Source: Lysobacter enzymogenes (GTDB lineage Bacteria; Pseudomonadota; Gammaproteobacteria; Xanthomonadales; Xanthomonadaceae). From it: 64,000 bases of DNA. The translations under genes and the position numbers were made by a program. The stretch is taken from contig NZ_FNOG01000002.1 of NCBI RefSeq assembly GCF_900106525.1, positions 428,221 through 492,220 of the forward strand, written 5' to 3'. This document shows, one piece after another, positions 15,210 to 27,152 of the stretch. The notes below the pieces were generated by a model. That model saw only the letters and a program-made list of their open reading frames with translations. It made no database searches and was not told where the DNA came from. Each line of letters starts with the position of its first letter. Position 1 is the first letter of the stretch.

Positions 15210-15221
15210 CACTAGACAGGT
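15210..15221 (+). promoter_or_regulatory. Putative PhnF operator 1
   Basis: The sequence CACTAGACAGGT lies 85 bases before the first gene of the aminophosphonate operon. It is identical to sites at 24924 and 27141. It keeps the TAGAC core of the GTxTAxAC half-site reported for HutC-type GntR factors, the class to which the phnF product in this segment belongs. Confidence 0.7.
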
Positions 15222-15305
15222 CCACCCGCCTGTCCCCGCGGTGTCATCACCGGGTTGCGCCCGGTGCCCAAGCTGGAGGCCTGTTCCGCAGCGCCTCCGG
15301 TTTCC

Positions 15306-15995
15306 ATGAACTACCGTCTCGCCCTGTTCGATATCGCCGGCACTACCGTGTCGGATCCGGGCTTCGTCGCCGAAGCCTTCGTCGGCGCGATGACCGCCGC
15401 CGGCCATCCCATTGAGGCGGAAACCTGCCGCGCGCTGATGGGCTACCGCAAGCCCGAGGCGATCGCGCGCCTGCTCGGCGAGGCGGCGACGCCGGCCAAG
15501 ATCGAAGCGATCCACGACGACTTCGTCGCGCGCATGCTGCGCTGCTATCGCGAACGCCCCGGGGTGGCGCCGCTGCCGGGCGCGGAGTCGACCTTCGCCC
15601 TGCTGCGCGCGCACGGCATCAAGGTCGCGCTCAACACCGGGTTCTCGCGCGATATCGCCGAAGCCATCGTGACGCGCCTGGGCTGGAGCGGCCGCATCGA
15701 TGCGCTGATCGCCAGCGACGAAGTGCCCTCGGGCCGGCCCGCGCCGTACATGGCCCAGGCGCTGCTGCGCCGGTTCGGCATCGACGACGCGCGCGCGCTG
15801 GTCAAGATCGGCGACACCGAAGTCGACATCGGCGAAGGCCGCAACGCCGGCGCCGGCCTGGTGGTGGCGATCACCACCGGCGCGTTCCGCCGCGACGAAC
15901 TGGAACCCTACGCGCCCGACGCCATCGTCGATTCGCTGTTCGAGCTGCCGGCGCTGCTCGGCATCGACGCCAGCGCCCGCGACGACGCCGCATGA
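15306..15995 (+). CDS. Phosphonatase-like HAD hydrolase (TIGR03351 type)
   Basis: A 229-residue HAD-superfamily hydrolase closest to phosphonoacetaldehyde hydrolase PhnX. The nucleophile motif is DIAGTT (residues 9-14) instead of the usual DxDxT, a hallmark of phosphonatase relatives. K49 in MGYRKP aligns with the MGxxK cap lysine that forms the Schiff base in PhnX, so C-P cleavage of an aldehyde phosphonate is plausible. KIGDTEVDIGEG carries the acidic metal site. Families of this type are known to neighbour a FAD oxidoreductase (TIGR03364), as here. It overlaps the permease gene by 4 bases. Confidence 0.87.
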   Translation: MNYRLALFDIAGTTVSDPGFVAEAFVGAMTAAGHPIEAETCRALMGYRKPEAIARLLGEAATPAKIEAIHDDFVARMLRCYRERPGVAPLPGAESTFALLRAHGIKVALNTGFSRDIAEAIVTRLGWSGRIDALIASDEVPSGRPAPYMAQALLRRFGIDDARALVKIGDTEVDIGEGRNAGAGLVVAITTGAFRRDELEPYAPDAIVDSLFELPALLGIDASARDDAA

Positions 15996-17281
15996 ACGCG
16001 CCGGTGTCCGCCGCGACCCTGCGCTCCTGGCGGGTCACCCTGCTCGCCGGCGGCGCGGCGCTGATGGCGTACGCCAGCATGTACGCGTTCCGCAAGCCGT
16101 TCGCCGCGGCCTCGTTCCACGGCCAGCAGTGGCTGGACGTGGACTACAAGGTCTGGCTGGTGGTCGCACAGATCCTGGGCTACATGTGCAGCAAGTTCAT
16201 CGGCATCGGCGTGATCGGCGGGCTGCGCCGCGAGCGCCGCGCGCCGCTGATGCTGCTGCTGATCGGCAGCGCCTGGCTGGCCCTGCTCGGCTTCGCGCTG
16301 GTGCCGGCGCCGTGGAATATCGGTTTCCTGTTCCTCAACGGCCTGCCGCTGGGTATGGTCTGGGGTCTGGTGTTCAGCTATCTGGAAGGCCGCCGCACCA
16401 CCGAGGCGATGGGCGCGATCCTGGCGTCGAGCTTCATCATGGCCTCGGGTATCGTCAAAAGCGTCGGCAAGTGGCTGCTGCTGGCGGGCGTGGACGAATT
16501 TTGGATGCCGTTCCTCACCGGCCTGTTGTTCGTGCCGCCGCTGCTGATCGCGCTGCGCCTGCTCGAGCGCGTGCCCGAGCCCGACGCCGCCGACCGCGCC
16601 GCGCGCAGCGAGCGATTGCCGATGAACCGCGCCGAGCGGCTCGCGTTCGTGCGCCGGTTCCTGCCGGGGCTGGCGCTGATGATCGGCTGCTATGTGGCGC
16701 TGACCGTGGTGCGGGATTTTCGCGACAACTTCGAGGCGGAGCTGTTCGCGGATCTGGGGTATGGCAACAACGCCGGCGTGTTCGCGTTGATCGAGACGCC
16801 TGTCGCTTTGGCTGTTCTCGCGTTGACCGCGGGCCTTACGTGGTTCCGCGACAACCTGCGCGGCCTGATGGCGCTGCATGGGCTGATGTTCGCCGGCCTG
16901 CTGACCGCCGGCTTCGCCACCCTCGCCTTCCGCGCCGGCGCGCTGCCGCCGCTGTGGTGGCTGGCGCTGGTCGGCTTCGGCCTGTACCTGGCCTATGTGC
17001 CATTCAACTGCGTGTTCTACGAGCGCCTGATCGCGACCTTCCGCGTCGCCGGCAACGTCGGCTTCCTGATGTACCTGTCCGACGCGTTCGGCTACCTGGG
17101 CAGCGTCGCGGTGCTGCTGGCCAAGGAGTTCTCCGGCGTGCAGCTGTCGTGGACCCAGTTCTTCGCCCAGATCGTGCTCGTGCTGAGCACGCTCGGCGGC
17201 GCCTGCCTGCTGGCTTCGGCCGTTTATTTCCATCACCGCGCCAGCCGCCGCGTGCAAGCGCCGGCGTTGGCGCCCGTTTGA
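15992..17281 (+). CDS. MFS-like permease (DUF5690-like)
   Basis: A 429-residue inner-membrane protein with about 12 predicted helices. YASMYAFRKPFAA near the N terminus and YLAYVPFNCVFYERL near the C terminus look like the DUF5690/MFS class. It is translated through an ATGA overlap with the phosphonatase-like gene and followed 15 bases later by the FAD oxidoreductase. That position makes it the likely cytoplasmic-membrane importer of the aminophosphonate substrate, replacing the ABC transporter usual in such operons. The substrate is inferred from context only. Confidence 0.75.
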   Translation: MNAPVSAATLRSWRVTLLAGGAALMAYASMYAFRKPFAAASFHGQQWLDVDYKVWLVVAQILGYMCSKFIGIGVIGGLRRERRAPLMLLLIGSAWLALLGFALVPAPWNIGFLFLNGLPLGMVWGLVFSYLEGRRTTEAMGAILASSFIMASGIVKSVGKWLLLAGVDEFWMPFLTGLLFVPPLLIALRLLERVPEPDAADRAARSERLPMNRAERLAFVRRFLPGLALMIGCYVALTVVRDFRDNFEAELFADLGYGNNAGVFALIETPVALAVLALTAGLTWFRDNLRGLMALHGLMFAGLLTAGFATLAFRAGALPPLWWLALVGFGLYLAYVPFNCVFYERLIATFRVAGNVGFLMYLSDAFGYLGSVAVLLAKEFSGVQLSWTQFFAQIVLVLSTLGGACLLASAVYFHHRASRRVQAPALAPV

Positions 17282-17296
17282 CTGGTTCGAACCCAC

Positions 17297-26723: not shown

Positions 26724-26780
26724 TTCCGCGGTGGCTTTCGTCGTTACTCGGATAACGAGTGAGGACAAGCTGCAATCCAA

Positions 26781-27010
26781 AGCTTCCGTCCGCAAGCGGC
26801 CGGGTCACTTTCTTTGTCTTGCCAAAGAAAGTAACCAAAGAAAGGCGCTTTCCTTGTTTTCGAATCAAGAGCCACTAAGGGTCGGAGCGTGCGCAGGGAT
26901 GCGCCACACAGGCCATCCATGGCCTGGGTGGCGCACGGCGCGCTTCCTGCGCGCCGCCCTTCGGGTCTCCATTTGCTTGTGGCGAGTTCGAGGCGGCGGG
27001 GGGAGCCAGT
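26781..27010 (-). repeat. Dispersed structured repeat, copy C (inverted)
   Basis: Third copy, in opposite orientation to A and B. It reads ccgtccgcaagcggccgggt, then the ctttctttg hairpin, then the ggccatccatggcctgg stem, and ends in a gaggcggcggggggagcc segment. Together with copy B it makes an inverted repeat about 800 bases across. Unlike A and B its far end runs into a GGCAAC microsatellite rather than the cattccgg palindrome. Confidence 0.8.
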
Positions 27011-27072
27011 AGCAACAACAACAGCAACAGCAACAGCAACGGCAACGGCAACGGCAACGGCAACGGCAACGG
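27011..27072 (+). repeat. AGCAAC/GGCAAC hexanucleotide tandem repeat
   Basis: An agcaac-type start, three AGCAAC units (27023-27040) and five GGCAAC units (27041-27070) run in tandem. It is non-coding on current evidence and lies 69 bases before the candidate PhnF operator of the TonB-receptor gene. Slippage could change spacing upstream of that promoter. Confidence 0.85.
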
Positions 27073-27140
27073 CCAGCAATCGCGATCTCGCCCGATTTTG
27101 CAACCGCCAAACCACCTGAATCCGCCCCGCCGTCACGAAG

Positions 27141-27152
27141 CACTAGACAGGT
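27141..27152 (+). promoter_or_regulatory. Putative PhnF operator 3
   Basis: A third exact CACTAGACAGGT, 95 bases before the TonB-receptor start and in the same orientation as the other two. It links the receptor to the aminophosphonate operon and phnM. Confidence 0.72.

Follow-up and report, generated by a model that had tools for sequence, protein, structure and literature searches.

The 64,000-nucleotide stretch of the Lysobacter enzymogenes genome studied here (contig NZ_FNOG01000002.1, hereafter the window) contains three exact copies of a 12-base site, CACTAGACAGGT, which we interpret as operators of PhnF, the GntR/HutC-type regulator encoded among them. We give a probability of roughly 85% to the reading that PhnF represses the gene of a TonB-dependent outer-membrane receptor, an operon starting with a HAD hydrolase gene, and its own gene together with the divergent phnM. 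A preliminary description of the window had proposed a PhnF regulon with these members. Comparison with related genomes supports the proposal by the invariance of the core of the site, by its tracking of phnF, and by its recurrence in other genera.

The three copies lie at 15210-15221, 24924-24935, and 27141-27152, all on the + strand, as first described. There is no further copy in the window, either exact or with one or two mismatches, and CTAG occurs there 19 times. The numbers of copies expected per window on both strands are 0.00053, 0.00043, and 0.00027 under Markov models of order 1, 2, and 3, respectively. A scan of the whole genome (6,260,331 bases in 23 contigs) recovered only these three copies, for 0.03-0.05 expected in 6.26 Mb (Markov order 1-3), while a control with the reversed pattern gave none, so the 12-mer is not common outside phosphonate genes. 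Each site has the orientation of the gene to its right. Between the end of the site and the start codon there are 84 bases for the HAD gene (ATG at 15306), 78 for phnM (ATG at 25014), and 94 for the TonB gene (ATG at 27247), within one base of the range of 79-95 given initially. The second site also lies 23 bases from the start codon of phnF, which is on the opposite strand.

We compared samples of 20 genomes from the genus and 395 from the family, where a PhnF relative was accepted at an E-value of 1e-40 or better. Such relatives were found in 12 of the 395 family genomes, that is, in 10 of the 20 from the genus and in two of another genus, Stenotrophomonas. DUF5690 is present in the same 10 genus genomes. 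The 20 genus genomes together hold 34 copies of the core of the site, CTAGACAGGT. Thirty of these copies are accounted for by the 10 genomes with phnF, each of which has the core unchanged at all three sites (10/10). The preliminary description had named rarity in the genome and conservation in related species as checks of its proposal, and both came out in its favour. The full 12-mer is exact at 20 of the 30 cluster sites; its first base, C, is replaced by G in nine and by A in one. Exact copies are found in 9 of the 20 genus genomes and the one in G008 is a stray, so at least one exact copy is present in 8 of the 10 clusters. Upstream of the core (bases 1-40), the mean pairwise identity is 0.41-0.45 at the HAD promoters and 0.44-0.58 at the TonB promoters, against 1.00 in the core, for loci that were collected by the core itself, which is still present at the three places in all 10 clusters. 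The phnF side of the phnF/phnM site is itself conserved (0.80-0.90) because the ribosome-binding region of phnF lies there. From CTAG to the ATG of the HAD gene there are 94 bases in every one of the 10 genus genomes; two genomes of the Stenotrophomonas group have 93 and 95.

The other four copies of CTAGACAGGT, one of them in a genome among the 10 that lack phnF, were considered as further members of the regulon and treated as chance. Those of G013 and G008 overlap long stop-free frames. Those of G005 (C1:3352575) and G015 (C1:1681124) are at an orthologous place, in regions (L121 and L123) of close relatives that are 86% identical over 4.2 kb.

Besides the core, the sites at HAD and TonB carry an inverted second arm, YNGTC, which the preliminary description does not mention. 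In the HAD promoters of the genus and of the Stenotrophomonas group (12/12), CTAGACAG is followed by ten bases and then YTGTC; in the TonB promoters of the genus (10/10), it is followed at the same spacing (N10) by CRGTC. In the window, the core CTAGACAG of operator 1 is at 15212-15219 and its right arm, CTGTC, at 15230-15234, while operator 3 has its core at 27143-27150 and its right arm, CAGTC, at 27161-27165, all on the + strand. When 47 offsets were scanned for CTGTC, N10 came first in every clade, both in the HAD and in the TonB group. It also came first for the 8-base arm, except in the TonB group of the genus, where it was second of 47. A search of the 20 genus genomes for the two-armed pattern CTAGACAR-N10-YNGYC gave 24 matches. 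Four of them end in GCC; the remaining 20 have GTC at the end and coincide exactly with the sites at HAD and TonB in the 10 genomes that carry phnF. Reversed-pattern controls gave 3-20 matches per strand and genome for this pattern and 0-14 for CTAGACAGGT, but they are no fair background because the reversed patterns lack CTAG.

A TGTC-N7-TGTCAT repeat with a period of 11 bases (15230-15248) overlaps the right arm of operator 1. A TGTC repeat of period 11 is the layout of a PHO box. The period is 11 in the HAD promoters of the genus, of the Stenotrophomonas group, and of Rudaea, and 12 in most of the other Rhodanobacteraceae-type promoters described below. A strict two-half PHO pattern has one copy in the genome of the window, beside a frame that by eye resembles a YegS-type lipid kinase. 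Since this search gave one copy only, it provides no local PHO-box standard. It is possible that the PHO-box-like repeat at operator 1 serves as a phosphate-starvation input. The next bases, directly before the HAD start codon (15249-15305), form a leader block conserved in the genus, with CCGGGTTGCGC and a GC-rich hairpin.

The operator consensus of the HutC subfamily is NyGTMTAKACNy, according to the available part of Suvorova et al. 2015 (PMC4494728). When set against GTMTAKAC, CACTAGAC agrees at 6 of 8 positions, with the right half complete, and TGTCTAGACA, the form found at 3/3 Rhodanobacteraceae-type TonB sites, fits the full palindrome. On the side of the protein, the recognition helix VNRHTVRRA is identical in all 22 PhnF proteins compared. 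In NagR, two consecutive guanines are read by Arg38 and Arg48, and only Arg48 is common in other HutC proteins (accessible portion of PMC4918961). In an alignment of PhnF on DasR, the place of the first arginine is taken by Phe, Leu, Gln, or Gly and the second arginine is kept. A PhnF with the second arginine only would fit the single G of TGTCTAGACA, which is a consistency and not a proof. We had also considered a symmetry about the central A of ACTAGACAGGT, which was dropped once the relatives showed symmetry about CTAG.

The operator was also found outside the genus. In Stenotrophomonas, CTAGACAR-N10-CTGSCTAG precedes the gene after phnM in the four loci that can be read there (L058, L059, L060, and L062; L061 breaks off). 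This gene, tested in L059, encodes a TonB-dependent receptor of subfamily TIGR01782, and the TonB receptor of the window has no match in these loci at an E-value of 1e-8. DUF5690 proteins above the cut-off were found in 36 of 398 genomes of the order and in 10 of 398 genomes of the phylum, and longer stretches were compared for 20 of these loci (L100-L119). Sixteen (L100-L115) come from a single family of the order, one with a Rudaea genome; as Rudaea is placed in Rhodanobacteraceae, these loci are called here Rhodanobacteraceae-type. Ten of them (L100-L109) combine DUF5690, the flavin adenine dinucleotide (FAD) oxidoreductase, phnF, and phnM, with a recognised HAD gene in eight, and all 10 have CTAGACA or CTAGACC upstream of the HAD or DUF5690 gene. 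A relative of the TonB receptor, with 48-50% identity and on the opposite strand, was found in three Rhodanobacteraceae-type loci, and in 3/3 it is preceded by TGTCTAGACA and then YTGTC at N10. In the remaining six (L110-L115), phnF is divergent from phnG, with phnJ further on (PhnG and PhnJ tested, 6/6). TGTCTAGATAACTAGACA lies between phnF and phnG in all six, exact in four and with one change in two, and CCTGTCTA stands directly before phnF (6/6). A DUF1045 protein is also present in L113. The presence of DUF5690 beside carbon-phosphorus (C-P) lyase clusters with phnF in 6/6 loci suggests a general phosphonate role for this family. The four loci from other families (L116-L119) have neither a phnF match nor a core within one mismatch. 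Across genera, the predicted operator follows its presumed target genes, be it an inverted TonB gene, a TonB receptor of another subfamily, or the gap between phnF and C-P lyase genes.

Some observations weigh against PhnF as the common regulator of the three sites. The TAGAC core had been said to fit HutC-type half-sites; this holds for the right half, which fits in full, but in this genus the palindrome has a degenerate left half. A right arm is missing from the phnF/phnM site of the genus loci. In the Rhodanobacteraceae-type promoters of L100-L109, the right arm YNGTC stands at N10 in eight and one base closer, at N9, in two. CTAG is missing from the phnF-phnM gap in all 10 of these loci, so this motif does not serve self-regulation everywhere. 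In the Rudaea locus (L063, the same as L109), the HAD core has one mismatch. Finally, the stray copy common to the close relatives G005 and G015 is far from phnF.

The missing motif in the phnF-phnM gap of Rhodanobacteraceae-type clusters, whose HAD and TonB promoters have it, is what one would expect if the sites were bound by a regulator encoded elsewhere and the action of PhnF were limited to its own promoter or directed at something else. We consider this improbable, as the sites track phnF in 10/10 genus genomes while the 10 genomes without phnF total one stray copy, the motif is found between phnF and phnG in 6/6 C-P lyase loci, and the half-site fits the HutC consensus. PhnF might also bind the sites as an activator. 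The HAD and TonB sites indeed form the upstream border of the block of conserved promoter sequence, a position common for activators. Yet GntR/HutC proteins are described as repressors (available part of PMC4918961), a PhnF is cited as a repressor in an excerpt of PMC10574752, and binding at site 2, given its closeness to the phnF start codon, should block the promoter. We hold activation to be unlikely, and repression is assumed here from the family of the regulator.

Control of the HAD operon by an RNA element, an AGACAGG/CCTGTC hairpin in the 5' leader, would account for the orientation of the sites, which is that of the downstream gene, and for the constant distance to the HAD start codon, and RNAalifold does pair the two arms in an alignment of 12 HAD leaders. 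In the same alignment, however, no pair of the arm stem is changed on both sides (over the leader as a whole, 4 of 24 pairs are), a partner arm is missing at the phnM site, and the relatives have two-fold symmetric forms, TGTCTAGACA and TGTCTAGATAACTAGACA, typical of protein operators. This makes the RNA element very improbable. There is hardly any chance that the three copies arose by accident or are remnants of a mobile repeat that spread, even if an abundant repeat element does lie between phnM and the TonB operator. Only 0.0003-0.0005 copies are expected per window and none is found elsewhere in the genome, the flanks differ among the three sites, and the sites are conserved in 10 genus genomes and in other genera.

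The gene families fit a phosphonate regulon. The regulator gene phnF (24151..24900, - strand) scores 230.7 bits with TIGR02325 (cut-off 156.8), and its product, scanned without the start codon, has the GntR helix-turn-helix (PF00392) and UTRA (PF07702) domains, both above cut-off. Operator 2 (24924..24935) separates it from the divergent phnM (25014..26171, + strand), an amidohydrolase gene with 425.4 bits for TIGR02318 (cut-off 390.55). This phnM and the HAD and FAD oxidoreductase genes, of phosphonate-named families, make up the phosphonate neighbourhood of phnF. The HAD operon is on the + strand. Its first gene (15306..15995) encodes a HAD hydrolase below both PhnX cut-offs (TIGR03351, 203.6 bits against 218.9; TIGR01422, 114.7 against 220), which we therefore name PhnX-like only. 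When aligned to phosphonoacetaldehyde hydrolase 2iof, it keeps the DxAGTT motif and a lysine, replaced by R in 2ioh, which we take to be the Schiff-base lysine of PhnX. The DUF5690 protein (15992..17281; PF18943, 539.7 bits), hydrophobic by eye, is a presumed phosphonate permease. The third gene (17297..18451) encodes the FAD-dependent oxidoreductase (TIGR03364, 409.9 bits; cut-off 285.1), and the receptor gene (27247..29493, + strand) has PF00593 and PF07715.

The C-P lyase protein PhnJ was found in 0/20 genus genomes, with a positive control in E. coli. An association with C-P lyase is typical of PhnF, if outside the definition of the family; it is absent from the genus and present in 6/6 of L110-L115. 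PhnW above cut-off was likewise found in 0/20 genus genomes, its weak matches occurring in all 20 and in 14/14 control genomes. In A. baumannii, PbfD1 carries the annotation TIGR03364 (parts of PMC10590968), and PbfD-type FAD enzymes convert N-methyl-2-aminoethylphosphonate to phosphonoacetaldehyde, some of them also taking 2-aminoethylphosphonate (AEP) itself (available parts of PMC10590968 and PMC10574752). With neither PhnJ nor an above-cut-off PhnW in the 20 genus genomes, the route under PhnF control is most likely a PbfD/PhnX-like one that has a receptor of its own.

We propose the following mechanism. A PhnF dimer is predicted to bind CTAGACAG. For the HAD operon and for the TonB gene, the operator would be CTAGACAG-N10-YNGTC, whose second half is probably held by a second dimer, centred 22 bases away, or by a cooperating subunit. 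Ligand-free PhnF would most likely repress the TonB gene, the HAD-DUF5690-FAD oxidoreductase operon, and phnF with phnM, and a phosphonate or a breakdown product in the UTRA domain would release it. Because site 2 is so close to the phnF start codon, PhnF bound there is expected to block the phnF promoter. With two arms in the operators of the supply genes and only one at the regulator, the response might be graded. The regulon would import an aminophosphonate by the receptor and the DUF5690 protein, the PbfD-type oxidoreductase would make phosphonoacetaldehyde from it, and the PhnX-like hydrolase would cleave the latter and release phosphate. More tentatively, PhnF may have been rewired from C-P lyase to a receptor-fed hydrolytic pathway. 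The operator-tagged TonB receptors, of different subfamilies in Lysobacter and Rhodanobacteraceae loci and in Stenotrophomonas, might then be dedicated importers of a phosphonate or phosphonate conjugate too large for porins, with PhnM, retained although the C-P lyase is missing, repurposed as a hydrolase that frees an aminophosphonate for the PbfD-type and PhnX-like enzymes.

The regulator type, the operator half-site, and the enzyme families are of known kinds. As in the PhnF systems of Mycobacterium smegmatis (phnDCE) and of C-P lyase operons, a GntR/HutC protein with a UTRA domain adjoins phosphonate genes and has an operator next to the gene that encodes it. The available text of PMC8012715 cites PhnF as having two binding sites. 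Unlike there, phnJ is absent (0/20 genus genomes), the predicted targets are the TonB gene and the HAD/DUF5690/FAD-oxidoreductase operon, and the putative operator is CTAGACAG-N10-YNGTC. The TAGAC half-site is shared with HutC-subfamily operators, and part of PMC4494728 describes additional, weaker half-boxes close to GntR sites, but they are 7-12 bases from the centre there, whereas the extra arm is about 17-21 bases from the CTAG centre here. The enzymes resemble the PbfD-phnX clusters that degrade AEP and N-methyl-AEP (PMC10590968), with a TIGR03364-kind oxidoreductase and a phosphonatase-type HAD without phnW; an excerpt of that paper states that, pbfD1 aside, pbfD genes mostly occur with phnX alone. 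Its main text has no mention of PhnM, TonB, Lysobacter, Stenotrophomonas, or DUF5690, to which the present analysis adds the proposed PhnF control and dedicated receptor. AepR control of phnWX in Pseudomonas putida BIRD-1 is likewise substrate-dependent and concerns an AEP pathway ending in a phosphonatase, but AepR, unlike PhnF, is LysR-type, and the authors of that study suppose that it acts on the operon adjacent to it (accessible part of PMC9311074, whose main text mentions neither PhnF nor TonB).

In the titles and the beginnings of abstracts of the open-access literature, which leaves subscription papers mostly outside, we found no description of PhnF sites in Lysobacter or relatives. 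The operator, its two-armed form, the link to a TonB gene, and PhnF over a PbfD/PhnX-like route without PhnJ had no precedent there, and the name DUF5690 appeared in no paper searched. A precise, genome-specific candidate operator ties a TonB receptor and the DUF5690 family to phosphonate use. It suggests that one regulator family serves two chemistries, C-P lyase in some loci and an oxidase/phosphonatase in others, and the same operator could tag further phosphonate receptors in the order.

Between the HAD operon and phnF there is a gene (21928-23964) for a phosphodiesterase/sulfatase-fold protein with hemopexin repeats (PF01663, PF00884, and PF00045). A 7/12 match to the 12-mer before this gene had been pointed out as a weaker site. 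It is at chance level, as 924 of 1000 random 200-base segments of the window have at least 7/12, and two of the 10 clusters (L036 and L037) yielded no such gene. Therefore, we discarded it as a further target of PhnF. In L041 and L042, AACGTGACAGGT lies upstream of the gene and on its strand, with 9/12 operator matches.

Between phnM and the TonB operator, positions 26235-27069 hold a non-coding element, some 800 bases long, whose 217-base inverted repeats are 88% complementary. Parts of it match at least 167 pieces of the genome (40 of 523 candidates scored, with the arms counting on both strands), and it is thus an abundant repeat family. It looks inserted, because in L034 only about 70 bases separate phnM from the TonB operator.

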